The translations under genes and the position numbers were made by a program. Below, in pieces: positions 628 to 23,095 of a stretch of 48,430 bases of DNA (positions within the stretch are counted from its first letter, which is position 1; each line of letters starts with the position of its first letter). The notes below the pieces were generated by a model. That model was not told the origin of the DNA and did not search any database. It saw only the letters and a program-made list of their open reading frames with translations. This DNA is from an uncultured Ruminobacter sp. Its GTDB lineage: Bacteria > Pseudomonadota > Gammaproteobacteria > Enterobacterales > Succinivibrionaceae. Where the stretch lies: positions 1-48,430 of the forward strand of contig CACWVT010000032.1 of assembly GCA_902764345.1 (NCBI GenBank). Reading direction: 5' to 3'.

Positions 628-631
628 ATTT

Positions 632-1618: not shown

Positions 1619-1697
1619 AATCGTTCTCCTATAACAAATCTTATAAGAGAACGACATGGTAGCTAGGATCTTAAATTTCTAGCACTATCGAGACTGG

Positions 1698-4811: not shown

Positions 4812-5288
4812 TTATCGATTTGTTGTCCTATGCTGGTTATCCGATACTTTATACATGGCAAAACAGGCAGACATTATAACTTAATAATTCAGAAAATCAT
4901 CAGTTTGCCGCGTCGGTTGAGGAAAAGGCCGTTTAAATGATAAAGACTTTAACGAAAGAAAAAGGCTTACTTTACTTTCATGACCTGTTTTGAATTCCTT
5001 TAAAAAGACTCATGAGAATGTGATTTTTTAAGGTTTTCCGCATACACGCATGTGGCTGTTGTCGGTAATTTTGGCGTTATGAGTGGAACTGTATGCTGAA
5101 ATAAAAATTTTAATATTTATGATTAATGTTTTAAAATTAAATTTAAACCTGTAAAAAAAAATGATACATGTTGAAGCTTTGTATTAAAATTGTGAAGCCG
5201 ATAACAAGTTTATTTTTGGTGCTGAAACAACCGTGTAATGCCGGACAGTTGTATGTAGCCGCTTTTTTTGAGCTTTTTTGAGTTTTGT
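4812..5288. other. Divergent intergenic region, likely promoters
   Basis: 477 bases between the divergent heparinase-like gene and wecB, AT-rich towards wecB with runs of A and T around 5100-5160. It must hold the promoters for both directions if the capsule operon starts at wecB. I could not pick a convincing -35/-10 pair, and no JUMPstart/ops element was recognised. Confidence 0.4.
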
Positions 5289-6431
5289 ATGAAGATTATA
5301 GTGATTGCGGGAACCCGACCAGAAGCCGTAAAACTGGCTCCCGTGGTTATGGAATTAAAAAAACATAAAGATATTACAACGGTAGTATGTAATTCGGGAC
5401 AGCATCAGCAGATGATTGAGGATGCTTTTTCGGATTTCGGCATTGTTCCCGACATTTCCCTTAATGTCATGTGTCACGGTCAGTCTCTTGCCAGTCTGAC
5501 TGCAAAACTGTTTACCGCCATTGATGAGGTTTTTGAAAGGGAAAAACCTGACTGGGTCATTGTTCAGGGGGACACCACCACTGTTATGGTGGGGGCAATG
5601 TGTGCTTTTTACCGTCATATCAGGATTGCGCACGTTGAAGCAGGATTAAGAAGTTACGACAAGTATGCTCCGTTCCCGGAAGAGGTAAACCGTCAGACCG
5701 TTACCAGAATTGCCGATCTTCATTTTGCACCTACCGGACTGGCATACAATAATCTCATTAAGGAAGGGATTTCTCCCGATAACGTATATATTACGGGCAA
5801 TACCGTAATTGATGCTCTTATGTGGGTAAGGGATTACCTTAAGGATAAAAACGAATATCTGCATGAGGATGTCAGGAAAGCCGTTGAACAGGGGAAGAAA
5901 ATCATTCTCGTAACCGGCCACAGAAGGGAAAATCAGGGCACCGGCCTTGTTGACATCTGTAATGCCATTAAACATCTGTCATACAAGTACATGGACTGTA
6001 TTTTTGTTTATCCGGTTCATCTTAACCCTGTAGTTCAGAATACGGTAAGGGCAATACTCAGCAATCACGCAAGGGTAATGCTCCTTCCTCCGCTTTCGTA
6101 TCTTCATTTTCAGGCTGTGCTCAACGTATCATATCTGGTACTGACGGATTCCGGCGGTATACAGGAGGAAGCTCCGGCTCTTTCCAAGCCTGTTCTCGTA
6201 ATGAGGGAGGTTACCGAAAGACCAGAAGGAATTCAGGCGGGATGTGCAAGACTTGTGGGGTCTGGCACCGATGCCATAGTTGACGGGGTTTCTGAACTGA
6301 TTGAGAATGCTGAAGAGTACAACAGAATGAAAAATGCCCAGAATCCGTACGGACACGGACATTCTTCTGAAAAAATCGTGAGTGCCATTCTTCGCGCGTC
6401 AGGGTATGAAACCAATCTGATGGCCGTATAG
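5289..6431 (+). CDS. wecB: UDP-N-acetylglucosamine 2-epimerase (non-hydrolysing)
   Basis: The 380-residue product converts UDP-GlcNAc to UDP-ManNAc in the cytoplasm. Family signatures are visible through its length: the N-terminal VIAGTRPEAVKLAPVV, VQGDTTTVMVGAMCAFY, HVEAGLRSYDKYAPFPEE(V)NR with the catalytic-region acidic and arginine residues, VTGHRRENQG, and LTDSGGIQEEAPALSKPVLVMR near the C-terminus. The length is standard. A TTG at 5268 is in frame, but the ATG at 5289 gives the canonical N-terminus (MKIIVIAGTRPE), so it is chosen. It is the first gene of the + strand capsule block and is followed after 110 bases by wecC, which uses its product. No other pathway for UDP-ManNAc is seen. 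Confidence 0.93.
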   Translation: MKIIVIAGTRPEAVKLAPVVMELKKHKDITTVVCNSGQHQQMIEDAFSDFGIVPDISLNVMCHGQSLASLTAKLFTAIDEVFEREKPDWVIVQGDTTTVMVGAMCAFYRHIRIAHVEAGLRSYDKYAPFPEEVNRQTVTRIADLHFAPTGLAYNNLIKEGISPDNVYITGNTVIDALMWVRDYLKDKNEYLHEDVRKAVEQGKKIILVTGHRRENQGTGLVDICNAIKHLSYKYMDCIFVYPVHLNPVVQNTVRAILSNHARVMLLPPLSYLHFQAVLNVSYLVLTDSGGIQEEAPALSKPVLVMREVTERPEGIQAGCARLVGSGTDAIVDGVSELIENAEEYNRMKNAQNPYGHGHSSEKIVSAILRASGYETNLMAV

Positions 6432-6541: not shown

Positions 6542-7780
6542 ATGAAACTTTGTATCTGCGGATTAGGGTATATAGGACTGCCTACCGCCGCCATGTTTGC
6601 ATCTCACGGAGTCAGTGTTCACGGGGTTGACGTAAACGTCCATGCCGTTGAAACAATTAACAAGGGAATGATTCATATTGTTGAACCGGGACTCGGTGAA
6701 GTTGTCAGACAGGCCGTGAAGGAAAACATGCTGAGCGCTTCAACCGAAGCGTGTGAAGCTGATGCATTCATAATCTGCGTACCGACACCTTTCAAAGGTG
6801 AATCTCATGAACCTGACCTCAGCTATGTTGAGTCAGCCACAGCCGAGATAGCTCAGTTTCTGAGAAAGGGAAATACGGTTATTCTTGAGTCAACCTCTCC
6901 GGTGGGAACAACCGAAAGGGTAGCCGAAATCCTCAGAGAAATGCGTCCGGATCTGGTAATGGCGTCTAAAAACACTGACGAATGTGACGTATTCATTGCA
7001 TATTGTCCGGAAAGGGTTCTTCCGGGCAGGATCATGACTGAGCTTGTCGATAATGATCGCATTGTCGGAGGGATAAACAGGGTTTCCGCAGATAAGGCTT
7101 CTGACATATACGCGGTTTTTGTTAAGGGGGAACTCCTCAGAACCAATGCCAGAACCGCAGAAATGTCCAAGCTTACCGAAAATTCATTCAGGGACGTAAA
7201 CATTGCTTTTGCCAATGAACTTTCCCTTATATGCGACAGACTGAACATTGACGTATGGGAACTGATAGCTCTTGCCAATCACCATCCACGCGTAAACATT
7301 CTTAATCCGGGCCCCGGAGTCGGCGGCCACTGCATAGCGGTGGATCCGTGGTTTATCGTCAGCAGGACTCCGGATCTGGCAAGGATTATTCATACCGCAA
7401 GACTTGTAAATGACGGAAAGCCTGAATGGGTGAAGCAGCAGGTAAGAAATGCCATAGCAAAGCTTAACAGACACTGTAACATTGCCTGTCTGGGACTTGC
7501 ATTCAAACCTGACATAGACGACCTGAGAGAGAGTCCGTCAGTGTTCATTGCCCGTGATCTGGCGAAGGAATATCCGGGCTGTGTGATGGCAGTTGAACCA
7601 AACATAACCGAACTCCCGGAAATTTTTGACGGCACCGGTCTCAGACTGGTATCCGCTGAAGAGGCTCTGAAGGCTGATATCATTCTTCTTCTGGTAGACC
7701 ATCGTGAGTTCAGGAGCATCAGCCCTGACTTTGATGAAAAGCAGATACTGATTGACACCAGAGGTCTGTGGCGGAAGTAG
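6542..7780 (+). CDS. wecC: UDP-N-acetyl-D-mannosamine dehydrogenase
   Basis: A 412-residue member of the UDP-glucose/UDP-mannosamine dehydrogenase family that oxidises UDP-ManNAc to UDP-ManNAcA with two NAD+. The N-terminal Rossmann fold starts at once (CICGLGYIGLPTAAMFASHG). The substrate-binding STSPVGTTE and the catalytic cysteine in GPGVGGHCIAVDPWFIV (Cys264) follow. The central domain has the conserved LTENSFRDVNIAFANEL helix, and the C-terminal domain carries GLAFKPDIDDLRESPS. The GHCIAVDPWFIV version of the active site is typical of WecC rather than of UDP-glucose dehydrogenase. Start is set by AGGA six bases before the ATG. With wecB this gives a two-gene module for an acidic amino sugar, so ManNAcA is a likely component of the polymer. 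Confidence 0.92.
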   Translation: MKLCICGLGYIGLPTAAMFASHGVSVHGVDVNVHAVETINKGMIHIVEPGLGEVVRQAVKENMLSASTEACEADAFIICVPTPFKGESHEPDLSYVESATAEIAQFLRKGNTVILESTSPVGTTERVAEILREMRPDLVMASKNTDECDVFIAYCPERVLPGRIMTELVDNDRIVGGINRVSADKASDIYAVFVKGELLRTNARTAEMSKLTENSFRDVNIAFANELSLICDRLNIDVWELIALANHHPRVNILNPGPGVGGHCIAVDPWFIVSRTPDLARIIHTARLVNDGKPEWVKQQVRNAIAKLNRHCNIACLGLAFKPDIDDLRESPSVFIARDLAKEYPGCVMAVEPNITELPEIFDGTGLRLVSAEEALKADIILLLVDHREFRSISPDFDEKQILIDTRGLWRK

Positions 7781-7880: not shown

Positions 7881-10800
7881 GTGAGTAAAAATAAAGATAT
7901 AGCCGTTGTGGGCATGGCATTCAGATTCCCTGGAGGAATAAGGAACGAAGAGCAGTTCTGGTCTCTGGTAAACAGCGGAACCTGTGCAATTACCAAAATC
8001 CCGGCCTCAAGATGGCCAACGGATCTGTATCAGGATGATAATAAAAACGTTCCTGGAAGAAGCGTTACCTTCAATGCCGGTGTTCTGGATTCCATAAAGG
8101 AGTTTGAGCCGGCGTTTTTCGGTATTTCACCTAAAGAAGCCGAATGGATGGATCCGCAGCAGCGTCTTCTGCTGAAGGTTACTCACGAGTGTCTTGAAAA
8201 CGCCAACATAAAAATCAGCGACTTTAAGGGCTCTGACTGCGGTGTTTATGCCGGCGTTTCATCCCTCGATTACTTCCTGCGTGCCGATGAGGACCTGCCT
8301 GCCGTTTCTCCTTATACCATGACGGGGAATACCTTAAGCATCGACGCCAACAGAATTTCCTATGTGTTTGATCTTCACGGTCCTTCGGTAACCATGGATA
8401 CTGCATGTTCATCCACTCTGGTTACCCTGCATCACGCCTGTCAGGCCATAAGAAGCGGAGAGATCCCGTGTGCCATTGTTGCCGGTGCGCATCTTCTCCT
8501 CAGACCGTATTCTTTCGTAGGGTTCAGCAAGGCATCCATGCTTTCACCTACGGGAACATGCAGACCGTTTGACGAAAGGGCAAACGGCTATGTCCGTTCC
8601 GAAGGTGCGGCTGCTCTTCTGCTGAAGCCGCTGGAAGACGCTATAAGAGATCACAACAGAATTCATGCCGTAATCAAGGCTTCCGGCGTTAACACTGACG
8701 GTTCGCGCAAGAGCGGTCTTACAATTCCTTCGGAAACGGCTCAGTCCCAGCTCATGAAGCAGGTTCTTGAAAGAAGCGGTATTTCCGTTGATGATGTTGA
8801 TTACATTGAGGCTCACGGTACCGGTACTCCGGTGGGTGATCCTATTGAAGTCCGTTCGATATCGTCCGTGTATGCCAAGGATCGTAACGGCAGACTCCCC
8901 GTTTCTTCCGTAAAGGCCAATCTTGGTCATATGGAACCGATGTCCGGTCTTGCAGGTATCGTCAAGGCTATTACCGTGTTAAAACACGGTACCGTTCCGC
9001 CGATTCCTTTTGATTTCAGACCGAGTCCGAAGATTGATTTTGACGGACTGAACATTCTCTGTTCTCAGGATGGTGTGAAGCTTTCCGATAAGCGCATTCA
9101 TACCGGTGCCGTTAACTCATTCGGCTTCGGCGGTGCCAACGCCCATGTGATACTGCAGTCTTTTGACAATGATGCGGTATCGGAAATTGCTGATACCGAG
9201 AAGAACGGTTCAGTTCCTCCGCTTTTTATTTCCGCAAAAACCAAAGATTCCCTTAAGGAAATCGGTGAATCTTATGCCGATTTGTTAAGAAGCGGAAAGT
9301 ATGATTACTATGACGTGGCATATACTGCGGTATATGGCAGGGATACATATGAGCACAGACTTGCCGTAACAGGTGCAGGTCAGGATGAGGTGCTTTCTTC
9401 ACTTGATAACTGGCTTAAGACCGGAACCGATGTCAATGTGTTCAGTGCCTTAACCAAAAAGCCTTGTAAGAAGGTGGGTTTTGTATTTAACGGAAACGGC
9501 TCCCAGTATGTGGGAATGGGGCGCAGCATTTACCGTGAATGCCCGCTGTTTGCATCCGTGTTTGATGATCTTTCAGAAAGGATTGAGAAGTATCTTAACG
9601 TTTCGTTAAAGGATATTGTGTCCGGTAAAACCTCTGAAGAAGACTCTGTAAACGAAGCGGATCTCATTCAGGATACCAAGATTGCCCAGACTCTGATTTT
9701 TGCCATTCAGGTTGCCGTGTCAGCGGTGTTAGAAAAGGGCGGATTAAAGCCTGAAGCCGTTGTCGGCCACAGTATGGGGGAAATAGCCGCGGCTTATGTG
9801 GCAGGACTTCTCACCGTTGATGAGGCGGTTAAGGTTATCTGCATCCGCAGCATGCTGCAGGATCGTACCCGCGGTCACGGAAAAATGGCCGCCGTATCCG
9901 TATCCGAGAATGATTTCAATGCCGTCAGGGCGGAACTCGGTATTACCGACGTTGATGTTGCCGCCATAAATTCATCAGACAACATTACCGTTTCAGGCCG
10001 TACCGAAACCATTATCGCACTGAAGGAATATTATTCATCAAGGGGGGTGTTCTATAAGATTCTGGATGTTGATTATCCGTTCCACAGTTCTTTCATGAAC
10101 GTTATTGAAAATGACGTGATGACTGATTTGTCCGATGTGGGAACCGTAAGCAAAGCTTCTTGCGGTACTGCCTTCTATTCCGCTGTTCTCGGAAGAAGGA
10201 TTGAGGACGGATTCTCACTCAAGAATAACTACTGGTGGCATAACATAAGAGATAAGGTTCAGTTCTGGCAGGCTGTTAAGGCCATGACCGAAGACGGCTT
10301 CGATTATATCGTGGAAATAGGTTCCAATGCCATTCTGCAGCGCTACCTGCGTGATATCTCAAAGAAGTCAGGTGCTGATGCCAGGGTTGGTTCTACACTT
10401 CTTGTCAATAATGACGGTGTCCGCCGTATCAGACAGGTTGTCATGGATTATCACCTGTCAGCCGATGCCTCCGATAAGGGCATATTCTTCCCTAAGGCCG
10501 GCAGATTGGTGGAACTGCCTTACTACCCCTGGTCGGAAAAGGTATTTGAATATCATGAATCCTCTGAAAAGCGTCCTGATGAGTTCAGAATTTTCCCTCT
10601 CCTCGGCTGGAATATCCTTTCTGCTGACAGAACCTGGCAGAATGTTCTGGAACCGTCAAAATACGCACTGCTCCGTGATCACGTGGTAGACGGTGAATAC
10701 GTTTATGCCGCCGCCGATTTTATCGAGACGGTGCTTGAAGGTGCGTCATGCGCAAATTCAGGTGAATGCATCAATATCGAACATCTCGACATTCTGAGTT

Positions 10801-13800
10801 CACTGGTGTTCGACGGCGAACACTACAAGTCCATGAGACTCCGCGTTGTTCCGGAAACAATGTCTTTTGACATATATTCAAGAGATTATCTCTCATTCGA
10901 CGAATGGACCAGAAATGTCAAAGGTCGTCTTCTGACCACGGATGACGCCGCACTGAGAAATGCCGTAAACCTTTACGAAGCCAAAAAGAATGACGGGGAG
11001 AACAGCGTTTCTCCGGTTGTAGTGACGAGAGATGAAATCTACGCCATTACCGAAAGCCTTGGTCTTCATTACGGCGAACAGTTTGCTCTTACGGAAAGGG
11101 TGGAAATTCTTAATGACGTTCTGAAGATTCATCTCGATGGAAAAGCACTTAAGGCTCATTCCGAAAAATACATCATACATCCGGGAATTCTGGATGCCGG
11201 ATTCCATTCCCTTTTCGCCATGAAACAGCTGAGTTCAGCCGATTCTGCTTACCTTCCGGTTAAATTCGGACGTATTTCCGTAATGAAGAATGCCGATGTT
11301 TCATATATCGTGGCAATGATTGAAAGAATCGGTGCGAGAAGCATTCTCGCATCATTCCGTCTGTTTAATGACGCGGATGAATGTGTCGGCATAATGGACA
11401 ACTGCAGATTCAACATGATGCCTAAGACCGAAAACAGGTCCGCAGAAGAAGGTGTTGCTTCATGGCATTATGAGGCTGAAGCCGCTCCTCATGCGCTGAA
11501 CGCATGTAAGGGAGTCGTCCGTTCAACTTCTGAAATCGTAAGCTTCCTTGAAGCCTGCGCCGACGACTCAGAAACTGTAAACGCTCAGGACAGAAAGAAC
11601 TGGTATGAACGGATTATGCCGCTTATGGAACAGGCGGTACTGGCTTATTCCGTGGAAGCGGTAAAGGCCGTGGCTTCCGATGCCAGTGATTTTGCTAAGG
11701 CAGGAAGCGGTCCGCTTTACGGATATCTTACCGATCTGCTTTTAAAGCATAACCTCGTTAAGATCGCTGACGGAGTTCCGACGGATTTTGTAAGTCAGGA
11801 TGATATTGGCACTGGTGACGAAATCATAAGATATGCCTATCATCTTGCACCTGAAGCCCTGCCGGATCTTCTTCCGGTTTACCGCGTGGGTAACAGACTT
11901 AAGGATCTTCTCGTGAACGGAGAAGCCTCTGACGGAGTATCCGCAGAAGATCTGAGGGGAGAGGAAAGAAACGGTTATTCTCTTCTCTATACCGGAATGA
12001 AGGCTGCCATGTCTTCATTCATAGCCGACGTAAGTCAGCGCACCGGGGCAGACGAAGGCGCTAAGTTCAGGGTGCTTGAAATCGGCAGCAACAGACTTAA
12101 GCTCGGAGAGCTTCTTGCTGACTGTTTTGCTGAAGGTTCCTGTGTTGAGGTTCTTGCCCTTAACGAAAAAGATATGGCCGAAGTCATTCCGTCCGAAAAC
12201 GTCAGAAAGGTCAGGTTTGATCCTGAAACGTTTACGGTTGAAAGAGACGTGGCGGATCCGTACATCCCTCAGAAATACGATTTAATCGTGGTTCAGGAAG
12301 CTCTTTACAGGGCATCATCAGTGATTGAAGCCGTTGAAGGTCTTAAAAACATGCTGGCTTCAGGCGGTGTAATTGCCGTTCTTGAAAGACATTCAGACTG
12401 GTCTGCCAACATGTGCAGCGGTTTCGGTTCAGATTGGTGGTCTGAACGCAGTGACGGTAATGCCATAAGCCCTCTCAGAAGTCCTGAATACTGGAAGACT
12501 GTTTTTGAAAAGTCATTTAACGACGTTTCCGTATATCGTGAACCTGCCGCCTCCGAATACCGGATGGGCGCTTATCTCATGTTCGTAAGAAACAGCGATG
12601 AAATTTCATTAAGTGATGTTGCCGGCGGTGTTAAACATGCCTATGCCGTCATTTCTCCTGAAGGGAATTCTGTTCAGGCGGGATTCATTCGTAATGAACT
12701 TGCAGGACTCGGGGTTAAGGCGGATGTTATTGCTGCTGATGAAGACTCTTTAGACAGTCTGAACATCGCAGATTATGACAGCTTCGTGTTTGTTTCATCA
12801 TGCGGACTGGCTTCGCACCAGTTACTTAATTCCATGTCAGAAAAGACAGGAATGACAGCCGCATCAGGTGATTCAACCGATATCAGTGATGCCCTCAGTG
12901 TTCTCACATCCGTTGCCAATAAGCTTAACGGCTATGCGCAGAAGAATGCCGGAGCCGGTGAAATAAATCTCTCAGTTGTTACCGTTAACGGTTCTTCTGT
13001 AAGAAACCAGATGCTTACTCATGAGACAGTTCCGGAACAGTCGGCACTCATCGGCCTTTCACGCGTAATCAGAAGTGAAGCTTCGGAGATTAACGTAAGA
13101 AGCATTGATCTGTCGTTTAAGGCAGAAACAGACACCGGTGCTGCTGAAGCATCTCTTCTGAAGGATTTACTGGTTCCTGACGGTTCCGATGAAGTCATTC
13201 TTTCCGGGGCTGAACGTTTCCGTACCGTAGTAAGAAGCTCTGAAAGTGAAAATGCTCCTGCGGATGCTTCCAATAATGTCGATAAGAGCGACGGCAGTAA
13301 TTCTCTGATTTCCGAAAACTACTGTCTTGATTTCACAAGTCCCGGCAGATTAAGAAATCTCTGCTGGAAGAAAAAGACCGTTTCCGCACCAAAGGCCAAT
13401 GAGGTTATTGTTGACGTTAAGGTAACGGGGCTTAACTTCAGGGACATCATGCTCACCATGGGCCTGGTTCCTGATGATGCTCTGGAAAACGGCTTCTCAG
13501 GTCCTGCTCTCGGTCTTGAATTTGCCGGTGTGGTTTCGGAAGTAGGTTCTGACGTCACCGAATACGTTAAGGGTGACAGGGTGCTCGGATTCGGTTCAGC
13601 CTGTTTTACCGATAAGCTGACCGTTCCTGAATATGCAATTGCCAGGATTCCTGACGAGTGGTCATTTGATGCCGCTGCCACTGCTCCCATAGTATTCTTT
13701 ACCGCATGGTATGCCATTCACCACCTTTCAAGAATGGAAGAAGGCGAAAGCATTCTTATTCACGGTGCCGCAGGCGGCGTGGGCATTGCTGCCATTCAGA

Positions 13801-15551
13801 TAGCACGTCATCTGGGGCTTAAGGTTTATGCAACCGCAGGTTCTCCTGAAAAGCGTGATTTCCTGAAGATGCTTGGTGTTGAACACATTTACAATTCCAG
13901 AAATCTCGATTTCCATGATGAGGTAATGAGGGATACAGGCGGTGTTGGTGTTAATGCCGTTCTTAACTGCCTGTCAGGTGAGGCCATGCGCGTGAGCATG
14001 TCCGTTCTTCAGCCGTTCGGCAGATTCATGGAACTCGGCAAGCGTGACTTCGTGGAAAATACCACCGTGGGATTACGCAGTCTTAAGGAAAACATCAGCT
14101 ACTTTGCCATTGACGTGGATCAGCTCTTTAAGGTTTATCCAAAGCGCGCAAGGGAACTGTTCCATGAGGTAATCGGTCTCTTCGCCGAAGGGGAATTCAC
14201 CCCGCTGCCGTTTACGAAGTTCAGTGATCGTGACGTTGTTAAGGCGTTCAAGTTCATGCAGCAGGGCGGACAGATTGGTAAGATTACCGTTGAAAGGACG
14301 GAACATTCCGCAACTGCCGGAACAGAAGCTGAACGTGGCGTATCTGAAAAATCCGGATCCTGCGAAGTATTCAGGGCTGATGATGTCTGGATGATTACGG
14401 GCGGTACCGGCGGTTTCGGTTTTGCAACAGCCCGTTATCTCATTGGTCAGGGGATTAAGAAGCTGGTACTGGTCTCCAGAAGCGGTATCAGGGATGAAAG
14501 CGTACTGGCTGAGCTTGAAGATCTTATTGTGGCCAACGGTCTGTCCGTTATCGTGGAAAAATGTGACGTTTCCTCAGCAGAGGACGTCAGGGCCTTGAGG
14601 GAGCGGCTTGATGACGCCGGCATTAGCGTAAACGGCATTATCCATGCCGCCGCGGTATTTGCTGATACCATGCTTCAGGCCATGAACCGTGAGCTTTATG
14701 CAGGGGTTATGAATCCTAAGTTTGTGGGAGCATGTAACCTTCACGAGGTGTTTAACTCCGAAGCACTGCGTAATTTTGTGGTGTATTCGTCAATATCTGT
14801 AGCCATCGGTAACATCGGTCAGGCAAATTACGTGTCCGCAAATTCAGGTCTTGAAGGTCTGACTGCCATGAGACAGGCACAGGGATTACCTTCCTGCTGT
14901 ATTGAATGGGGCCCAATCAGTGATACCGGTTATTTAAGTTCAAGAACACAGATTAAGAAATCTCTCGAATCCGTGCTCGGTGCCGAGGCTCTCACGTGTG
15001 ACGAGGCTCTGTCTCTGCTGCCTCAGGCATTAAGACGCGGCGGCGTGAACATATTTGCCAACCTTAACTGGGCGGGCGTTGCCGAAACTTCCGGCAGAAT
15101 TTCGTCAAGAATCTATGATTTGGTTCAGAAGGATAAGTTAAGACTTAAGGATTTCGGTTCCGATGATCTGCTTTCCGTAATTGAAGGCAGAAGCCGTGAA
15201 GAGGCTATAGCCGTGATTTCCGACATGCTGGTATCTGAAATAGCCGATACCATGGGCCTAAGTTCCGATCAGATAGCAAAGGATCAGAACCTGCAGAGCA
15301 TAGGTCTTGATTCGCTCATGGCAATGGAGCTTATCGTAAGCATTGAGAAGAAAACAAAGATTAAGCTTTCCGTGATGGCTTTCCAGGATAATCCTACGGT
15401 ACTTAAACTAGCTGAAAAGATCTTCATGAAGATTAGCGGTAGTGAATCTTCCGACGGCGATGAACAGGGAACCGTAAGTCAGGTCATCTCGGCTCATGTC
15501 GATGAGGGGGAAAGAGACATCATCGGACGACAGTTAAATATGGGAAAGTAA
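7881..15551 (+). CDS. Type I highly reducing iterative polyketide synthase (KS-AT-DH-psiMT-ER-KR-ACP)
   Basis: One 2556-residue chain carries a full reducing PKS module. The ketosynthase has the Cys176 (DTACSS), His312 (EAHGTGT), His350 (NLGHME) triad. The acyltransferase has Ser631 in GHSMGE, and its YPFHS specificity region suggests malonyl. The dehydratase has His934 (HVVDG) and Asp1105 (DAGFHS). A degenerate methyltransferase-like stretch near 1395 (VLEIGSNRLKLGELL) lacks the glycine-rich SAM loop. The enoylreductase starts near 1850 with HGAAGGVGIAA near 1960. The ketoreductase has TGGTGGFG near 2170 and Tyr2317, and the C-terminal ACP has Ser2478 in GLDSLMAMEL. Start is a GTG after AAGG. 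There is no thioesterase; the next gene, 9 bases on, is an alpha-oxoamine synthase that could release the chain. Size, architecture and context resemble RkpA of Sinorhizobium and WcbR of Burkholderia pseudomallei, both capsule genes. The product is probably a fully reduced fatty chain; its length cannot be read from sequence. Confidence 0.92.
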   Translation: MSKNKDIAVVGMAFRFPGGIRNEEQFWSLVNSGTCAITKIPASRWPTDLYQDDNKNVPGRSVTFNAGVLDSIKEFEPAFFGISPKEAEWMDPQQRLLLKVTHECLENANIKISDFKGSDCGVYAGVSSLDYFLRADEDLPAVSPYTMTGNTLSIDANRISYVFDLHGPSVTMDTACSSTLVTLHHACQAIRSGEIPCAIVAGAHLLLRPYSFVGFSKASMLSPTGTCRPFDERANGYVRSEGAAALLLKPLEDAIRDHNRIHAVIKASGVNTDGSRKSGLTIPSETAQSQLMKQVLERSGISVDDVDYIEAHGTGTPVGDPIEVRSISSVYAKDRNGRLPVSSVKANLGHMEPMSGLAGIVKAITVLKHGTVPPIPFDFRPSPKIDFDGLNILCSQDGVKLSDKRIHTGAVNSFGFGGANAHVILQSFDNDAVSEIADTEKNGSVPPLFISAKTKDSLKEIGESYADLLRSGKYDYYDVAYTAVYGRDTYEHRLAVTGAGQDEVLSSLDNWLKTGTDVNVFSALTKKPCKKVGFVFNGNGSQYVGMGRSIYRECPLFASVFDDLSERIEKYLNVSLKDIVSGKTSEEDSVNEADLIQDTKIAQTLIFAIQVAVSAVLEKGGLKPEAVVGHSMGEIAAAYVAGLLTVDEAVKVICIRSMLQDRTRGHGKMAAVSVSENDFNAVRAELGITDVDVAAINSSDNITVSGRTETIIALKEYYSSRGVFYKILDVDYPFHSSFMNVIENDVMTDLSDVGTVSKASCGTAFYSAVLGRRIEDGFSLKNNYWWHNIRDKVQFWQAVKAMTEDGFDYIVEIGSNAILQRYLRDISKKSGADARVGSTLLVNNDGVRRIRQVVMDYHLSADASDKGIFFPKAGRLVELPYYPWSEKVFEYHESSEKRPDEFRIFPLLGWNILSADRTWQNVLEPSKYALLRDHVVDGEYVYAAADFIETVLEGASCANSGECINIEHLDILSSLVFDGEHYKSMRLRVVPETMSFDIYSRDYLSFDEWTRNVKGRLLTTDDAALRNAVNLYEAKKNDGENSVSPVVVTRDEIYAITESLGLHYGEQFALTERVEILNDVLKIHLDGKALKAHSEKYIIHPGILDAGFHSLFAMKQLSSADSAYLPVKFGRISVMKNADVSYIVAMIERIGARSILASFRLFNDADECVGIMDNCRFNMMPKTENRSAEEGVASWHYEAEAAPHALNACKGVVRSTSEIVSFLEACADDSETVNAQDRKNWYERIMPLMEQAVLAYSVEAVKAVASDASDFAKAGSGPLYGYLTDLLLKHNLVKIADGVPTDFVSQDDIGTGDEIIRYAYHLAPEALPDLLPVYRVGNRLKDLLVNGEASDGVSAEDLRGEERNGYSLLYTGMKAAMSSFIADVSQRTGADEGAKFRVLEIGSNRLKLGELLADCFAEGSCVEVLALNEKDMAEVIPSENVRKVRFDPETFTVERDVADPYIPQKYDLIVVQEALYRASSVIEAVEGLKNMLASGGVIAVLERHSDWSANMCSGFGSDWWSERSDGNAISPLRSPEYWKTVFEKSFNDVSVYREPAASEYRMGAYLMFVRNSDEISLSDVAGGVKHAYAVISPEGNSVQAGFIRNELAGLGVKADVIAADEDSLDSLNIADYDSFVFVSSCGLASHQLLNSMSEKTGMTAASGDSTDISDALSVLTSVANKLNGYAQKNAGAGEINLSVVTVNGSSVRNQMLTHETVPEQSALIGLSRVIRSEASEINVRSIDLSFKAETDTGAAEASLLKDLLVPDGSDEVILSGAERFRTVVRSSESENAPADASNNVDKSDGSNSLISENYCLDFTSPGRLRNLCWKKKTVSAPKANEVIVDVKVTGLNFRDIMLTMGLVPDDALENGFSGPALGLEFAGVVSEVGSDVTEYVKGDRVLGFGSACFTDKLTVPEYAIARIPDEWSFDAAATAPIVFFTAWYAIHHLSRMEEGESILIHGAAGGVGIAAIQIARHLGLKVYATAGSPEKRDFLKMLGVEHIYNSRNLDFHDEVMRDTGGVGVNAVLNCLSGEAMRVSMSVLQPFGRFMELGKRDFVENTTVGLRSLKENISYFAIDVDQLFKVYPKRARELFHEVIGLFAEGEFTPLPFTKFSDRDVVKAFKFMQQGGQIGKITVERTEHSATAGTEAERGVSEKSGSCEVFRADDVWMITGGTGGFGFATARYLIGQGIKKLVLVSRSGIRDESVLAELEDLIVANGLSVIVEKCDVSSAEDVRALRERLDDAGISVNGIIHAAAVFADTMLQAMNRELYAGVMNPKFVGACNLHEVFNSEALRNFVVYSSISVAIGNIGQANYVSANSGLEGLTAMRQAQGLPSCCIEWGPISDTGYLSSRTQIKKSLESVLGAEALTCDEALSLLPQALRRGGVNIFANLNWAGVAETSGRISSRIYDLVQKDKLRLKDFGSDDLLSVIEGRSREEAIAVISDMLVSEIADTMGLSSDQIAKDQNLQSIGLDSLMAMELIVSIEKKTKIKLSVMAFQDNPTVLKLAEKIFMKISGSESSDGDEQGTVSQVISAHVDEGERDIIGRQLNMGK

Positions 15552-15560
15552 ATAAGCAAT

Positions 15561-16892
15561 ATGTTTAATCCGCCTAAATTTGCCGGAATGCTTAATTCCA
15601 TAATGAAGGAAAAGTCCGGAAAAGCAGAAGACGAGAAGCTCGCAAGGGAGCTTGTGGAAGAGGACGCGCAGCCGAAGGTTAATAAGAAATTTACTTCCTT
15701 CAGGGAGCATCCTCTCTATCAGAAGATAAGTACCATGAGAACCCTGGCTTCTACCTTTCACATTGAAGATCCGTTTTTCAGGGAACATGAAAGACTTAAC
15801 GGAACCGTTACCAGAATCAACGGAAAGGATTACGTCAACTATTCCAGTTATAACTATCTTGGCTTTAACGGCTGTGCCGAACTTAACGAAGCGGTAATTA
15901 ATGCCGTTAAGGTTCACGGCACGTCAGTCGGCGCCAGCCGACTGGTTGCCGGAGAAAGGCCTTTCCAGCGGAGTCTTGAAAGGAAGCTTGCCGATGTTTA
16001 TGATGCCGATGACGCCATTGTCTTTGTAAGCGGTCATGCCACCAACGTGAGCGTCATAAGCACTCTTTTCGGAGCGAATGATTTAATCATCAATGATTCG
16101 CTGGTTCACAACAGTATCATCGAGGGTATAAAGCTTTCAGGGGCAACTCATTTTCCGTTCGTTCATAACGATATGGATTCACTTGAGAACCTTCTTAAAA
16201 AGAACCGCCGTAATTACGAAAGGGTACTGATTGTAACCGAAGGACTTTTCAGCATGGACGGGGATATTCCGGATCTGCCTAAGCTTATAGAGCTCAAAAA
16301 GAGATTCGGCTGTTTCCTCATGATTGATGAGGCTCATTCACTGGGAGTTCTCGGTAAAACAGGTAAGGGGGTTTACGAGCATTTTGACGCGGATCCTCAC
16401 GATGTTGATCTCTGGATGGGAACACTCAGTAAAACACTGGCCGGATGTGGCGGATACATTGCCGCCACGCAGGACATAGTTGATATTTTAAAGTATAATG
16501 CTCCGGGGTTCGTTTTCAGCGTGGGTATATCGGCTCCCATGGCGGTTGCCGCCGAAACGGCGCTGGATCTGATGAAAAAGGATCCGTCAAGGGTAAGGAG
16601 ACTTCAGGATAACGGAAAGCTGTTCCTTGAAACCGCAAAAAGACTGAATCTGAACACCGGAAAATCACTGGGATATTCCGTAGTGCCGATTATCACCGGA
16701 AGTTCCAGAAAGGCGGTATGGCTGTCTGCCGCTTTATTTAAGGAAGGAATAAACGTACAGCCGATAATTCATCCTGCCGTGGAGGAACGGCAGGCAAGAC
16801 TGAGGTTCTTTATAACCTCAGAACATACAGCAGAACAAATCACGAAGACATGTGAAATATTGTCTTCCTTATGTAAGAATGAAGGGATTTAA
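15561..16892 (+). CDS. Alpha-oxoamine synthase (AONS/serine palmitoyltransferase family)
   Basis: A 443-residue PLP enzyme of the family that decarboxylates an amino acid and joins it to an acyl thioester. Visible marks are YSSYNYLGF, the glycine-rich GTSVGASRLVAGE, SGHATNVSV, the PLP-ring aspartate in DEAHSLGVLG, and the Schiff-base Lys291 in GTLSKTLAGCGGYI. The first 60 residues form an extension before the usual AONS core, as in serine palmitoyltransferase and RkpG/WcbT-like capsule proteins. No biotin genes are nearby, so BioF is unlikely. Following a thioesterase-less PKS by 9 bases, it most likely off-loads the ACP-bound chain by condensation with serine, alanine or glycine to give a 3-keto sphingoid-like amine. 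The amino acid used is not predictable here. Its TAA directly abuts the next ATG. Confidence 0.88.
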   Translation: MFNPPKFAGMLNSIMKEKSGKAEDEKLARELVEEDAQPKVNKKFTSFREHPLYQKISTMRTLASTFHIEDPFFREHERLNGTVTRINGKDYVNYSSYNYLGFNGCAELNEAVINAVKVHGTSVGASRLVAGERPFQRSLERKLADVYDADDAIVFVSGHATNVSVISTLFGANDLIINDSLVHNSIIEGIKLSGATHFPFVHNDMDSLENLLKKNRRNYERVLIVTEGLFSMDGDIPDLPKLIELKKRFGCFLMIDEAHSLGVLGKTGKGVYEHFDADPHDVDLWMGTLSKTLAGCGGYIAATQDIVDILKYNAPGFVFSVGISAPMAVAAETALDLMKKDPSRVRRLQDNGKLFLETAKRLNLNTGKSLGYSVVPIITGSSRKAVWLSAALFKEGINVQPIIHPAVEERQARLRFFITSEHTAEQITKTCEILSSLCKNEGI

Positions 16893-18158
16893 ATGATTTC
16901 AAAAATAGCCGTTTGCATCAAAACAGCATTACTGCTTTCAGTTGTGGCATCACAGGTAACTCTTTCCGGATGTACACTCCCTCATGCGGGACCAAGCTAC
17001 GGGGACATAACCTCCAGGGAACAGCCTCAGCAGCAGACTCCGATTTCTCTGGTAATGGTTGACGAGGCAGTAACGGATCTTCTCAATGAAGACGTTTCAA
17101 AGTCTTCATTTTATGACGTGTTCGGTGACAGAAAGCCGGATACCTATACCGTAAATTACGGTGATTCTCTGGAACTGTACATCTGGGAAAGTGCTCCGGC
17201 ACTTCTTTTCGGGACCAACACCGTCGACAGTGATAATCTGTCGGTAAGTTCCCAGAAGCTTCCGGTTCAGATAATTGAAGATGACGGTAAAATCTCCGTA
17301 CCGTTTGTCGGCATGATTTCCGTTGTCGGTAAGACTGTCCGTCAGGTTGAAAAGGATATTCTTAAAGCTCTTGAAAACAAGGCCAATAATCCTCAGGTTC
17401 TGGTAAAGGTTTCTGACAGACCTGCTGACAAGGTTACCGTTATCGGTGACGGACAGGGTGGCAGCAGCATTCTCCTTTCACCTAAGGGCGAAAGGGTGCT
17501 TGACGCCATTGCGTCAACTGCGGGAATTGCCAGCACCTTCAATAAAATTACCGTGGGGCTCACCAGAGACGGCAAGACCGTAACCATGCCTCTCGAAAGC
17601 ATTATTAAGGATCCGAAGCAGAACGTTTACCTCAATTCAGGTGACGTGCTTGTGGCCATGAATCAGCCGTGGTCCTATTCCATTATGGGAGCAAATCTCG
17701 GTTCAGCCAAGGAAATTAATTTCGAAGCCACCGGCATAAGTCTGCTTCAGGCGCTGTCACGTGCCGGCGGTCTGAATGACAACATGGCCGATCCGTCAGG
17801 TGTGTTTGTGTTCCGTTTTGAGGATAAGGAGACCTATAAAAAACTTTCCGATGCGTTTAATTCAGCCAATGCTTCAGCTGAAGGCACTAACGCCAAAGCT
17901 TCGGGAAAGTCATGGGTATATCCGATGGAACAGGTTGACAAGTACAGCAGACTGGAATCAATACCGATGGTATACCAGATTGATTTAAATCAGCCCGGCT
18001 CATTCTTTTCTTCACAGAACTTCAGTGTCAAGAATGGTGACGTGATTTACATTGCCACCGCTTCAAGCTATGAACTGTCTAAGTTCCTGCGCATTGTCGG
18101 TCTGATAGTTAATCCTGCTCTTTCATGGGGCAACAACATTAACAAGATAACGGAATAA
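16893..18158 (+). CDS. Outer-membrane polysaccharide export lipoprotein (KpsD/BexD/Wza family)
   Basis: The 421-residue product begins with a lipoprotein signal peptide (hydrophobic to about residue 23, lipobox LSGC with Cys27), so it is predicted to be anchored in the outer membrane. A polysaccharide-export domain follows (YTVNYGDSLELYIWES, near 87-102, through FVGMISVVGKTVRQVE). Two SLBB-like segments come next (from about 180, KVTVIGDGQGG, and from about 265, YSIMGANLGSAKEINFEATG). Length is close to BexD/CtrA and shorter than E. coli KpsD. It forms the exit channel of ABC-type capsule export and is the first of four consecutive exporter genes. The ATG follows the AONS stop with no gap, which ties expression of exporter and lipid synthesis together. 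Confidence 0.88.
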   Translation: MISKIAVCIKTALLLSVVASQVTLSGCTLPHAGPSYGDITSREQPQQQTPISLVMVDEAVTDLLNEDVSKSSFYDVFGDRKPDTYTVNYGDSLELYIWESAPALLFGTNTVDSDNLSVSSQKLPVQIIEDDGKISVPFVGMISVVGKTVRQVEKDILKALENKANNPQVLVKVSDRPADKVTVIGDGQGGSSILLSPKGERVLDAIASTAGIASTFNKITVGLTRDGKTVTMPLESIIKDPKQNVYLNSGDVLVAMNQPWSYSIMGANLGSAKEINFEATGISLLQALSRAGGLNDNMADPSGVFVFRFEDKETYKKLSDAFNSANASAEGTNAKASGKSWVYPMEQVDKYSRLESIPMVYQIDLNQPGSFFSSQNFSVKNGDVIYIATASSYELSKFLRIVGLIVNPALSWGNNINKITE

Positions 18159-18173: not shown

Positions 18174-18950
18174 ATGAGTGGTAATCCTGTAAAAAATACC
18201 CTGATGGTATGGAAGGCTCTTTTTTTAAAAGACGCCTTAAGCCGTTTTTTCGGGAGTCGCGGTGCCTGGGCCTGGATGCTTATTGAACCGTGCATTCACA
18301 TATTGTTTATGGTATTTGTTTTCACGGTGATAAGAGCCAAGCAGGTCAGTGGCGTTGACGTCGCATCCTGGCTGATGGTGGGTTTTATGGGGTTCTTTCT
18401 GTTCAGAAGAACTGCAGTACAGGGGATTCATGCCCTTGATTGTAACAAGGCATTTTTTGCCTTCAGACAGGTGAGACCTTTTGATACGGCACTGACCTGT
18501 GCCACCGTTGAACTGTTCTCCATGTTCTGGGTAACCGTTCTTATGGTTATAATTTTTGCTTTTATTGGGTATCAGGTAATCCCAGTTGATATCTTAAGGG
18601 TACTGGCAGGCTTTTTCGGTTTATGGATTTTAGGATTGGGATACGGACTTATCTCGTCCGTTTCCATGAGAATCGTCAGGGACTCCGGGCATATTTTACA
18701 GATTCTGATGATGCCTCTGATGATTATTTCCGGAGTTATTATTCCGGTTGCCAGAATACCTGAGCCTTATCAGAGTCTTCTGACCCTCAATCCCATAGTC
18801 CACGGACTCGAATCCATGCGTTTGGGCTTTTGGCCGTATTATCATACAGTTGATGCTTCCTTATGGTATTTGTACTGTGTGGATCTTTTGTTGGTTGTTA
18901 TAGGAATGGCTCTTTACAGAGTATTAGAAACAAGATTGGTGACTCAGTAA
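18174..18950 (+). CDS. kpsM: Capsule ABC transporter, permease subunit
   Basis: A 258-residue ABC-2 type membrane protein with six hydrophobic segments, among them WMLIEPCIHILFMVFVFTVI, VTVLMVIIFAFIGYQVI, LAGFFGLWILGLGYGLI, LQILMMPLMIISGVIIP and a C-terminal LYCVDLLLVVIGMALY. The P-E-P pattern around RIPEPYQSLLTLNPIVHGLESMR is typical of KpsM/BexB/Wzm. It carries the polymer through the inner membrane with the ATPase encoded next. Its stop codon overlaps the next start (TAATG), consistent with coupled synthesis of the two subunits. Confidence 0.92.
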   Translation: MSGNPVKNTLMVWKALFLKDALSRFFGSRGAWAWMLIEPCIHILFMVFVFTVIRAKQVSGVDVASWLMVGFMGFFLFRRTAVQGIHALDCNKAFFAFRQVRPFDTALTCATVELFSMFWVTVLMVIIFAFIGYQVIPVDILRVLAGFFGLWILGLGYGLISSVSMRIVRDSGHILQILMMPLMIISGVIIPVARIPEPYQSLLTLNPIVHGLESMRLGFWPYYHTVDASLWYLYCVDLLLVVIGMALYRVLETRLVTQ

Positions 18951-19612
18951 TGATTATTGTTAAAGACGTGTATAAGCGTTATACCACTAAAAAAGGTGTT
19001 GGAGACTGGGTTTTAAAGGGGATAAATCTGGTAATTCCCAAAAACAGAAGCGTTGGGATCGTTGGAGGTAACGGAGCAGGTAAGTCCACTCTTCTGAGAA
19101 TAATATGCGGTGCGGACTATGCGAGCCACGGTATTGTAGAACGTCACTGTAGGATGTCTTGGCCAATGGGTAACGGAGGTGTTGAGCCTACAATGACAGG
19201 GCGACAAAATGCAAAATTCATCTGCAGAGCGCACGGCTTTGAAGATGAAATGGAAGAGCGTATAGCCAGAATAGAGGATTTTGCCGATATCGGTCAGGCT
19301 TTTGACAAACCGGTAAACACTTATTCTTCAGGTATGCGTTCAAGATTGCAGTTTGCTTTGTCTCTGGCCTTTGATTTTGATGTTTATGTTTCTGACGAAG
19401 TGACATCAGCAGGTGATGCGGCATTTAAAAAAAAGGCGAAAAAAGCGTTTAGGGATTTGGCGGGAAAATCAAGCATCATTATGGTTGCCCATAATGATGA
19501 AATGTTAAAGAGTTTTTGCGAATCAGGTATTTTTTTGTATAAAGGTCAGGCAACATGGTACGACAAATTGGATGATGCCTTGGCTGCTTATAAGGAAACT
19601 ATAAAAGTATGA
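18950..19612 (+). CDS. kpsT: Capsule ABC transporter, ATP-binding subunit
   Basis: A 220-residue ATPase of the KpsT/BexA/CtrD group. Walker A is GGNGAGKST, the signature is YSSGMRSRLQFALSLA, Walker B is DVYVSDEVTSAGD and the H-loop is MVAHN. It is short, as in group-2 capsule ATPases, and lacks the long C-terminal carbohydrate-binding domain of Wzt-type O-antigen exporters. Recognition of the cargo is therefore probably not by a Wzt-type domain. The reading frame is open upstream into kpsM, but the ATG at 18950, overlapping the kpsM stop, gives the canonical N-terminus MIIVKDVYKRY. It overlaps kpsE by four bases (ATGA). Confidence 0.93.
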   Translation: MIIVKDVYKRYTTKKGVGDWVLKGINLVIPKNRSVGIVGGNGAGKSTLLRIICGADYASHGIVERHCRMSWPMGNGGVEPTMTGRQNAKFICRAHGFEDEMEERIARIEDFADIGQAFDKPVNTYSSGMRSRLQFALSLAFDFDVYVSDEVTSAGDAAFKKKAKKAFRDLAGKSSIIMVAHNDEMLKSFCESGIFLYKGQATWYDKLDDALAAYKETIKV

Positions 19613-20763
19613 GTGAAACACAGGTTAATGATGTTAATTCCGCGGCGTTAAGGGATCTGGGCAAAACAACCAGAGTCGTAAACCGTGCGTTTAAGTATAT
19701 TTTTAATGCAATTTACGTGGCGGCTTTTCTAAGCCTCATTTATTGGTGTTTCGCCTCAGATCGTTACGTTTCCGAAGCAGTTGTTCTTGTTCAGAATACC
19801 GATACCGGCGGTTCCACCCAGTCTATGGATCTTCTGAACCTGTTTTCCAACACCACCGGGAATAAAAGTGATCAGCTTTTGCTGGTAGAGTATCTGACTT
19901 CCCTTGATATGCTGAATAAGTTGGATAAGGAGTTTGATCTCAGAAGCCATTACAGTTCTACCGATCATGACATTGTTTCCAGACTTTGGGATAAGGATGT
20001 TTCAATAGAGTGGTTCTATTCTTATTTCAAGAACCGTGTTTTTGCGACATATGATGACTATACCGGAGTCATCAGAATTGAAGCTCAGGCTTTCGATCCT
20101 GAAACAGCCGAAAAGATTTCGGCATTTCTGGTAAAGGAAGGCGAAGCCTTCATGAATGAACTGACCCATTCCGTTGCTAACGAACAGGTTGTGTTCCTTG
20201 AAGAACAGGTTGATGCAGCAAGAAACGACCTCCGTGCAGCCAATGATCGTCTTCTTAAATTCCAGAATCAGAAAAACATGGCTTCACCTGCCATCGAAGT
20301 TGAAAATTATCAGCGCATCATTGCTGATTTGGAAAAGCAGAAGAGTGAACTCATCATTAAGATTCAGTCTCTGCCTCAGTCAATCGGTTCCGATAATCAG
20401 ATTAAGCAGTCACTAAGAAGTAACATAAAGGCGATTGACGAGCAGATTGCAAACGTCAGATCATTTATTACTTCAGACAAAACAACTTCTCTTAACGATT
20501 TGGCTGATAAGGAACAGGCTCTGAAGATGGATGTTGACTTCAAGAAGGACATTTATTCATCCGCTCTTACCGGTCTTGTAAAGGGTAAGATGAATGCCGC
20601 CAGACTTATTAAGCATGTGTCCGTTTTACAGAGTCCTTCAAAGCCTGAGTATGCACTGAAGCCTGAAAGGTTCTACTGCTTTGTTGCCACCTTATGCATA
20701 GCACTTTTAGTGCTCGGCATGCTGCAGCTTCTCAAGTCCGTAATACTTGACCATGTTGATTAA
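19609..20763 (+). CDS. kpsE: Capsule export inner-membrane/periplasmic adaptor (KpsE/BexC family)
   Basis: A 384-residue polysaccharide co-polymerase-like protein. One membrane segment lies near the N-terminus (about 29-47, FNAIYVAAFLSLIYWCF) and one at the C-terminus (about 358-377, YCFVATLCIALLVLGMLQLL). They bracket a periplasmic region with long coiled coils (about 195-245 and 260-310). It links KpsMT to the outer-membrane exporter. The four-base overlap with kpsT and the terminator 30 bases downstream mark it as the last gene of the transcript. The gene order exporter lipoprotein-M-T-E differs from Haemophilus bexDCBA. No kpsC, kpsS, kpsF or kpsU homologue is in the window. Confidence 0.9.
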   Translation: MSETQVNDVNSAALRDLGKTTRVVNRAFKYIFNAIYVAAFLSLIYWCFASDRYVSEAVVLVQNTDTGGSTQSMDLLNLFSNTTGNKSDQLLLVEYLTSLDMLNKLDKEFDLRSHYSSTDHDIVSRLWDKDVSIEWFYSYFKNRVFATYDDYTGVIRIEAQAFDPETAEKISAFLVKEGEAFMNELTHSVANEQVVFLEEQVDAARNDLRAANDRLLKFQNQKNMASPAIEVENYQRIIADLEKQKSELIIKIQSLPQSIGSDNQIKQSLRSNIKAIDEQIANVRSFITSDKTTSLNDLADKEQALKMDVDFKKDIYSSALTGLVKGKMNAARLIKHVSVLQSPSKPEYALKPERFYCFVATLCIALLVLGMLQLLKSVILDHVD

Positions 20764-22899: not shown

Positions 22900-23095
22900 A
22901 ATGAATTCCTGATTTTCAAATAATGCCTGACACCTATGCGGTTGCCCTGACACCTTTGAGGTCGTAAAGCGTAATTTACGGCTGTCAACCGCCGGATGAA
23001 ACTGGTTACAATACTTACTGTCTTCAGATGTTAAAGCGTTTTACTGTAAATATCAATATTTAAGAGATGTTATGGTGATGAATACCGGTTTTATT

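Follow-up and report, generated by a model that had tools for sequence, protein, structure and literature searches.

The capsule locus described here lies on contig 32 of the 2.49-Mb draft genome of an uncultured Ruminobacter sp. (about 92% estimated completeness); the window, i.e. the whole stretch analysed, comprises 48,430 bases. Its core is formed by a reducing type I polyketide synthase (PKS; 7881–15551, + strand, 2556 aa) of the RkpA/WcbR/SgaA type, which we infer to work iteratively, and an alpha-oxoamine synthase (AOS; 15561–16892, +, 443 aa, PF00155) of the RkpG/WcbT/SgaB type. Domains were called by Pfam matches, and curated scores are those of NCBIfam models with their own cut-offs. 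The PKS has the domain order KS-AT-DH-(weak MT)-ER-KR-ACP (KS, aa 5–440; AT, 534–860; DH, 906–1183; degenerate MT, about 1376–1544; ER, 1839–2135; KR, 2170–2347; ACP, 2450–2512), which is the set needed for a fully reduced chain. The KS Cys, AT Ser, DH His/Asp, KR Tyr and ACP Ser are intact, as are the cofactor motifs of ER and KR. No thioesterase family was found among the Pfam matches of the PKS, and on this point the initial annotation is borne out by the Pfam and motif checks. The S-adenosylmethionine (SAM) motif of the methyltransferase domain is degenerate as judged by eye, and a methylated chain was rejected on this ground.

The PKS gene closes with its stop codon at 15551 and the AOS ATG lies at 15561, leaving a gap of 9 bases, and the AOS stop at 16892 directly abuts the start of KpsD at 16893, followed by KpsM, KpsT and KpsE. 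This arrangement and the Schiff-base lysine of the AOS had been pointed out in the initial annotation, and both hold in the coordinates and the alignment. The pyridoxal phosphate (PLP) lysine K291, together with H183, D256, H259 and R415, is invariant across all 39 rows of the group, a count that includes the window and near-copies and excludes the divergent G138, G410, G328b, G388, G113 and G238. The window AOS shares 98% identity with the AOS of a Ruminobacter metagenome-assembled genome. Its scores stayed below the cut-offs of all curated models, with 340 bits for BioF (cut-off 426), 314 bits for the KBL-related model and 292, 262 and 198 bits for the serine palmitoyltransferase (SPT) models (cut-offs 640, 500 and 670, respectively). 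In a tree of 63 rows (G001 omitted as a copy of L009), a 100/99 branch separates a side of 51 rows, with the window AOS and S. meliloti RkpG and with a PKS found beside the AOS for 43 rows, from the SPT (3), KBL (3) and BioF (4) rows and the genome's own C17 copy of the family. The C17 copy falls inside the BioF group, yet under the BioF model cut-off. A BioF or KBL role of the window AOS was rejected because of the missed cut-offs, the separate clade and the C17 copy in the BioF group, and membership among canonical bacterial SPTs failed likewise (scores under the SPT cut-offs, position outside the three-row SPT group).

Among solved structures, bacterial AOS/SPT chains matched the AOS at 9e-64 and 6e-63, and SphA, which we take to be fungal and the sole fungal-type proxy among the solved chains, was the last of 50 matches at 1e-20 (3e-23). 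The parallel to fungal Fum1/Fum8 drawn in the initial annotation survives as a likeness of kind, since Fum1/Fum8 and SphA follow the same logic of an AOS releasing the PKS chain with an amino acid, there without a capsule. Close kinship of the fumonisin type is unsupported by the ranking, in which SphA stood as proxy and Fum8 lay outside the comparison.

The PKS-AOS pair is real, but the module is larger and includes a reductase and a transferase at 30019–33993 that the initial annotation overlooked. The first, 13 kb downstream of the pair, is a GT2-SDR fusion (30019–32397, +) proposed to be the 3-ketosphinganine reductase. Its N-part (aa 1 to about 527) is a membrane GT2 glycosyltransferase with cellulose synthases as nearest solved relatives, and its C-part (about aa 538–780, nt 31630–32358) is a short-chain dehydrogenase/reductase (SDR) homologous to RkpH; the two are one protein in the window, G001 and G003. 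The fusion and its neighbourhood suggest that the GT2 may act on the reduced sphingoid base or at the step that follows. The second is an RkpI-type glycerol-phosphate transferase of sulfatase fold (32398–33993, +), the proposed maker of phosphoglycerol-sphinganine. Its nearest solved relative is the phosphoglycerol transferase GacH (5e-15), and for the Pseudomonas homologue these are the lipoteichoic acid (LTA) primase and GacH. The characterised enzymes GacH, LtaP and LtaS, which are the nearest solved relatives overall, act on cell-wall polymers or LTA of Gram-positive bacteria, and their catalytic residues are conserved in the window group: E249, T291, H342, R351, H411, D474 and H475, presumably the catalytic set of LtaS (Thr, metal, substrate), are kept in all 21 RkpI-type proteins aligned (22 rows before G101 was dropped for an apparently over-long open reading frame (ORF) call). 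Hydropathy gave five N-terminal helices in the window protein; for four homologues the number of segments was four or five.

Homologues of S. meliloti RkpA, RkpG, RkpH and RkpI are all present in the window (PKS, 35% identity; AOS, 46%; SDR, 28%, 2e-20; RkpI-type, 24%, 4e-27). On pSymB of S. meliloti Ak57 the order is PKS, AOS, SDR, sulfatase-fold protein and KpsS, which we take to be the rkpA-G-H-I-J set, with names given by position; the sulfatase-fold gene is missing from the gene table of the record and was found by tblastn. Paraburkholderia dioscoreae has the run KpsS-SDR-LTA synthase-PKS-LpxC-like-AOS-GNAT, and the locus of Pseudomonas sp. TMW 2.1634 holds an LTA-synthase-family protein (36% identical to that of the window), an SDR (47%), KpsS and two larger PF05159 proteins. 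All four module homologues (PKS, AOS, SDR, RkpI-type) occur together also in Caballeronia. The rkp set includes KpsS (RkpJ), and WcbO is, we assume, the KpsS-family protein of wcb; the window genome, in contrast, has no KpsS-family protein. It differs from rkp and wcb further in the fusion of the SDR to a GT2 and in the presence of a GT4-GT-GT2 (GT, glycosyltransferase) cassette. The rkp-1 products have been proposed to provide a 'specific lipid carrier' and are required for the secretion of poly-3-deoxy-D-manno-octulosonic acid (poly-Kdo) (PMC4881576, citing Kiss 1997). The published list for the wcb cluster gives, in this order, an acetyltransferase, an AOS, an LpxC-like deacetylase, a PKS, a sulfatase, an SDR and capsule export genes (PMC4275268), matching the run in P. 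dioscoreae. The swf-type clusters of sponge symbionts, which contain sulphotransferase and radical SAM genes, were set aside because their PKSs form a group of their own (PMC3908369).

The distribution of the module was followed at two levels. Among 77 relatives (own genome included) 16 had an AOS match at E 1e-60 or better, and within the own family, Succinivibrionaceae, an AOS of this group occurs in 14 of 46 genomes (family counts leave aside G013 and G019, 37% identity). In all 14 family loci with readable neighbours, ten of type A (PKS-AOS-KpsS) and four of type B, a capsule gene adjoins the AOS. Partner counts hold for the fetched stretches around the AOS. KpsS adjoins the AOS in 10/10 type A loci, which hold an RkpI-type gene in 9/10, the reductase in 7/10 and a GNAT gene in 10/10 cases; the window queries alone gave the same nine and seven. 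The order PKS-AOS followed by KpsD-KpsM-KpsT-KpsE is kept in G001, G003 and G021, and the 4.4-kb contig of G002 carries PKS-AOS only. In a phylum sample of 398 genomes (own included; threshold 1e-90), 21 had an AOS match, which yielded another 22 loci; a PKS is present in 19. Of these 19, 12 have at least one capsule gene in the fetched stretch and eight have KpsS or KpsC; in a thirteenth, G390, the exporter genes lie at a distance of 37 kb.

As controls served a single PF05159 (KpsS/KpsC family) locus from each of 11 AOS-less genomes. The reductase was found in none of the 11 and an RkpI-type gene in one, a 3.8-kb KpsS-GNAT-RkpI contig (G033) that is apparently a cut type A locus. The control contigs of G030, G033 and G061 are shorter than 5 kb, and G061 gave no match to any query; among the control stretches longer than 10 kb, none of eight had either gene. 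Because the control loci are nearly devoid of them, the partners track the PKS-AOS pair and not capsule loci at large. Fisher tests, which disregard shared descent and are used descriptively, gave p 3e-4 for the RkpI-type gene and p 1e-3 for the reductase in type A loci versus the 11 controls, p 0.002 for AOS versus PF05159 in the 46 family genomes, and p 7e-5 for type-B-like KpsM (E <1e-40) versus AOS in 397 phylum genomes.

Several genes recur beside the module in relatives. The GNAT N-acyltransferase of the ten type A loci (e.g. L066 14227–14823, −) is a candidate acylator of the sphingoid amine; in the window no GNAT gene was found by the queries used. An LpxC-family deacetylase lies between PKS and AOS in L077 (11049–11963), L079 (13039–13965) and G390, and its substrate might be an N-acylated intermediate. 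L066 (8926–9315, −) and L065 (3610–4002) encode a small protein, about 130 aa long, whose start resembles that of a lipoprotein by eye and which in L066 has no Pfam match; among type A loci it directly precedes KpsM in G015, G022 and G024 and stands in the divergent arm in G009. Planktothrix and Streptomyces plasmids encode PKS proteins that end in a C-terminally fused AOS (L082 5617–13215; L081 8311–13134), and no capsule gene met the queries in these two loci. The same negative was obtained for the loci of cyanobacterial and Bacteroidota AOS relatives that were covered.

The exporter is that of group 2, ATP-binding cassette (ABC)-dependent capsules, with which the window shares KpsD, KpsM, KpsT and KpsE; the Kdo transferases KpsS and KpsC are absent from its genome. 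The exporter names are supported by Pfam above and NCBIfam below cut-off: the KpsD/Wza-type outer-membrane export protein (16893–18158, +; PF02563, SLBB), the ABC exporter membrane subunit KpsM (18174–18950, +; PF01061, NF050053 below cut-off), its ATPase KpsT (18863–19612, +; PF00005) and the KpsE/BexC-type inner-membrane export protein (19609–20763, +; PF02706, TIGR01010 below cut-off). The true start of KpsT may be 18950, as judged from a 220-aa homologue in G003; the ORF of G001 has 249 aa like that of the window.

PF05159 is absent from the window's own genome and was found in 0/4 genus genomes, all of them drafts estimated to be 92 to 97% complete. The site right after the AOS, where type A relatives have KpsS, is assembled in the window, G001 and G003 and holds KpsD. 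No PF05159 match was obtained in the complete 309,692 bases of C. insecticola plasmid p2, the one replicon searched, and G390 (estimated 100% complete) has one partial, weak match (1.3e-17). A PF05159 match was obtained in 17 of 22 genomes, or in 16 of 21 when L014/G381 and L009/G001 are each treated as a single genome, the partial match of G390 being counted. The locus is of an already known kind, the rkp/wcb-type capsule-lipid module; the new point is the KpsS/KpsC-less state of the genus, whose relatives keep KpsS beside the AOS.

A KpsS/KpsC-less capsule has a counterpart in the Vi system of Salmonella Typhi (VexA-E). The Vi terminus is a diacyl-HexNAc and involves VexE, and to our knowledge the system has neither PKS nor AOS. 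Like the window it is ABC-exported, without KpsS/KpsC and with a lipid terminus of its own, and Vi antigen is the exception named in a review that makes no mention of sphingolipids (PMC12220298).

Next to the reductase lies the cassette, which consists of a GT4-type glycosyltransferase (27323–28693, +), a second glycosyltransferase (28693–29799, +; PF13524) and the GT2 of the fusion. Homologues of all three are present in C. insecticola p2 and G390 (GT4, 46%; second GT, 47–48%; GT2, 32–33%), and the AOS nearest to that of G390 in the tree is that of C. insecticola. Ruminobacter, C. insecticola p2 and G390 also have in common KpsD-KpsM-KpsT-KpsE and wecB-wecC, which in the window encode the UDP-GlcNAc 2-epimerase WecB (5268–6431, +; TIGR00236 above cut-off; UDP-ManNAc supply) and the UDP-ManNAc dehydrogenase WecC (6542–7780, +; NF008286 above cut-off; UDP-ManNAcA supply). 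GT4 and GT2 together at 1e-30 were found in four of 186 stretches, many of which cover partial loci: two Ruminobacter loci, G390 and C. insecticola, all four without KpsS/KpsC in reach. In G390 GT4-GT-GT2 is followed, after about 1.1 kb, by SDR-transferase-PKS-LpxC-AOS-GNAT, so that the cassette is directly upstream of the reductase, at the place where Paraburkholderia has KpsS. The three GT genes of C. insecticola lie elsewhere in the cluster, beyond wecC, and the positional swap of cassette for KpsS is for this reason limited to one genome. Other marks of KpsS loss did not hold. The KpsM subfamily was rejected because a similar exporter occurs together with KpsS/KpsC in G122, G374 and G459. 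The type B order was rejected because the Comamonas genome of L011 shows it and holds KpsS/KpsC elsewhere, and because G021, with a type B locus, has KpsS in its type A locus. The idea of wecB-wecC as a strict Kdo substitute is weakened by S. meliloti AK76 pSymB, where KpsM-KpsT-KpsE-wecB-wecC is followed by a homologue of the second GT and a heparinase-like gene is present too.

The chemistry of the pair, called unclear in the initial annotation for the rkp/wcb type, has become clearer for PKS and AOS. Pseudomonas fluorescens MYb115 makes C24, C26 and C28 sphinganines with SgaA-SgaB, where SgaB has SPT activity, binds L-serine with near-exclusive preference over alanine and glycine, and forms 3-ketosphinganines; the SDR SgaC was proposed for keto reduction, and compounds of +154 Da were judged most likely to be phosphoglycerol sphingolipids, with no enzyme named for this step in the portion seen (PMC12134224). 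Judged from sequence, the RkpI-type enzyme class would be a candidate for it. Like the window, the sga cluster has an iterative PKS adjoining an AOS, and an SDR, which in the window is fused to GT2 and 13 kb away; it is unlike the window in being described as a secondary-metabolite cluster, and the likeness is one of description and locus-tag spacing, not of compared sequences. Four genes lie between AOS and SDR both by the MYb115 locus tags and in a Pseudomonas plasmid locus (PhyH, PF05159, GNAT, LTA synthase) whose SDR is 47% identical to that of the window. This numbering suggests that sga may itself be a cluster of the capsule type. Capsule, wcb and rkp go without mention in the main text of PMC12134224.

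We consider it probable that the locus makes a dedicated sphingoid lipid that serves as the terminal lipid, anchor or acceptor, of the ABC-exported capsule. The initial annotation had postulated a sphingoid (2-amino-3-keto) capsule lipid as anchor, primer or carrier; the SgaAB precedent, the AOS clade, the neighbourhood recurring in distant proteobacteria and the control now provide partial support for such a lipid. Genetic support is indirect, coming from the rkp-1 requirement in poly-Kdo secretion and from a wcbR-containing deletion. In the proposed sequence, the PKS, with intact motifs and no release domain, would assemble an ACP-bound acyl chain that is saturated and probably without branches. 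The AOS would then join this chain with L-serine and release 3-ketosphinganine, as SgaB does; the amino acid is read from the SgaAB precedent since profile scores cannot tell. The RkpH-type SDR domain of the fusion is positioned to reduce the product to sphinganine, and the RkpI-type enzyme may transfer glycerol-phosphate from phosphatidylglycerol to it, a step proposed because of the homology to GacH and LTA synthases and the phosphoglycerol-sphinganines assigned in MYb115. Phosphoglycerol-sphinganine would mimic lyso-phosphatidylglycerol, which normally serves ABC-type capsules as the reducing-end acceptor. The Kdo linker would be added to this lipid by KpsS/KpsC in many relatives; in the present lineage the GT4-GT-GT2 cassette is the best candidate for the polymer starter.

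A number of observations weigh against this assignment. A deletion including wcbR reduces the capsule without abolishing it (PMC7858667), and the failure of the cyanobacterial AOS Npun_R3567 to give ketosphinganine in E. coli (PMC8895605) may also count against it, should that enzyme belong to the same clade. Among the 19 phylum loci with a PKS, only part have the partners (capsule gene, 12; SDR, 10; RkpI-type transferase, 7); in the 40 kb of the type B locus of G021 neither the reductase nor an RkpI-type gene was found. The curated models leave the amino acid of the AOS undecided, and the reductase is by sequence a generic SDR. From its N-terminal helices, the catalytic domain of the RkpI-type protein is predicted to be periplasmic, while the capsule starts in the cytoplasm, which leaves the order of steps unsettled; as a remedy the lipid may flip, or the enzyme may exchange the anchor after export. 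For no member of the group did we find a report of such a lipid attached to capsule.

For the Ruminobacter lineage a further step is conceivable, if rather doubtful: a Kdo-free class of ABC-exported capsules, with the polymer started on the sphingoid lipid and the cassette as a non-homologous replacement of KpsS/KpsC. In such a scheme, tentative in each of its parts, the GT2-SDR protein might reduce 3-ketosphinganine and add the first sugar, the GT4-GT pair might complete a short linker with UDP-ManNAcA, and KpsMT would export the product. That the cassette is common to Ruminobacter and some Burkholderiaceae in this role is put forward with the same reserve. The ManNAcA part has AK76 pSymB against it, as wecB-wecC and the second GT may belong to the polymer.

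It is unlikely, though deserving of attention, that the products are free sphinganine or phosphoglycerol-sphinganine acting as membrane lipid or signal and sited in a capsule operon for co-regulation only. In MYb115, free sphinganines and phosphoglycerol sphingolipids were found by liquid chromatography-mass spectrometry and lipidomics, and amounts of some sphingolipids correlate with survival of the worm host (PMC12134224); moreover, PKS-AOS pairs without capsule genes in the fetched stretches exist in six loci (G086a, G238, G113, G388, G166, G337). Against free lipids speak the capsule gene next to the AOS in every readable family locus, the acceptor chemistry of KpsS, which together with KpsC attaches Kdo to (lyso)phosphatidylglycerol and suits a phosphoglycerol lipid (PMC7694667), and the spacing of AOS and reductase in MYb115, shared by numbering with the Pseudomonas plasmid locus.

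A periplasmic exchange of anchors appears clearly less probable still. Here the capsule would be begun on ordinary phosphatidylglycerol and exported, and the RkpI-type enzyme, using LtaS chemistry, would move glycan-glycerol-phosphate off the diacylglycerol portion onto sphinganine, which would resolve the topology and make the phosphoglycerol-sphinganines of MYb115 a side product formed with plain phosphatidylglycerol as donor. The absence of KpsS/KpsC from the Ruminobacter genomes is left unexplained in this way, and we know of no GacH/LtaS-type enzyme with a capsule-bearing donor.

Very improbable is a non-sphingoid product, formed by a BioF-, KBL- or ALAS-like AOS that takes a short acyl chain or an amino acid other than L-serine. 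BioF is the best curated model (340 bits) and a wcb homologue is annotated '8-amino-7-oxononanoate synthase' (PMC4275268), but every curated cut-off was missed, the genome has a separate copy in the BioF clade, the AOS is paired with a PKS without other release domain, and SgaB of a like pair prefers L-serine. The least credible account is an ordinary Kdo/lyso-phosphatidylglycerol capsule with KpsS and KpsC in unassembled parts of the drafts (92 to 97% complete by estimate) and another role of the PKS-AOS lipid, as PF05159 is lacking from all four genomes and the post-AOS site, assembled in three, is occupied by KpsD.

If the capsule-terminal role of the sphingoid lipid is correct, it would unite the 'lipid carrier' puzzle of rkp/wcb with the PKS-made bacterial sphingolipids of 2025, two subjects unconnected in the searched literature: no stated capsule-sphingolipid link was found in titles and abstracts of open-access papers, paywalled papers and preprints being outside this scope, and the one open-access paper found to name such a synthase, a PKS and capsular polysaccharide together is a genome survey that lists the genes. 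Many proteobacterial capsules would then end in phosphoglycerol-sphinganine, some lineages would have lost the Kdo linker, and each of RkpA, RkpG, RkpH and RkpI would receive a testable role. Sphingolipids of rhizobia, Burkholderia and rumen bacteria would be worth seeking in capsule fractions, which ordinary lipid extraction might overlook.

Downstream of the transferase follow a large GT2-containing protein (34003–38241, +; 1412 aa) and a TagF-like (PF04464) glycerophosphotransferase-family protein (38362–40488, +), both presumably for polymer synthesis. With a further TagF/TarF-like protein at 45819–48071 (−) there are two near the locus, and the pair suggests glycerol- or ribitol-phosphate in the polymer. 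A heparinase II/III-family lyase is encoded at the locus edge (2910–4811, −). Its similarity to sequences in two other capsule loci with wecB-wecC, on C. insecticola p2 (28%) and on S. meliloti AK76 pSymB (23%), hints at a uronic-acid polymer common to them.

The capsule locus is split by two genes, one for an AAA-ATPase_like/PDDEXK_9 protein (nuclease-like; 21145–22953, −) and one for an SNF2 helicase (23244–27089, +), for which the best PADLOC model is ZorD (394 bits) and the NCBIfam SCO1167-type model gave 550 bits, below cut-off. ORFs of similar length occupy the same site in G001, not in G003, and a PDDEXK_9 ATPase lies upstream of wecC also in the type B locus of G021. At the left edge of the window (76–1657, −) there are a type I restriction specificity-type ORF and a tyrosine integrase.

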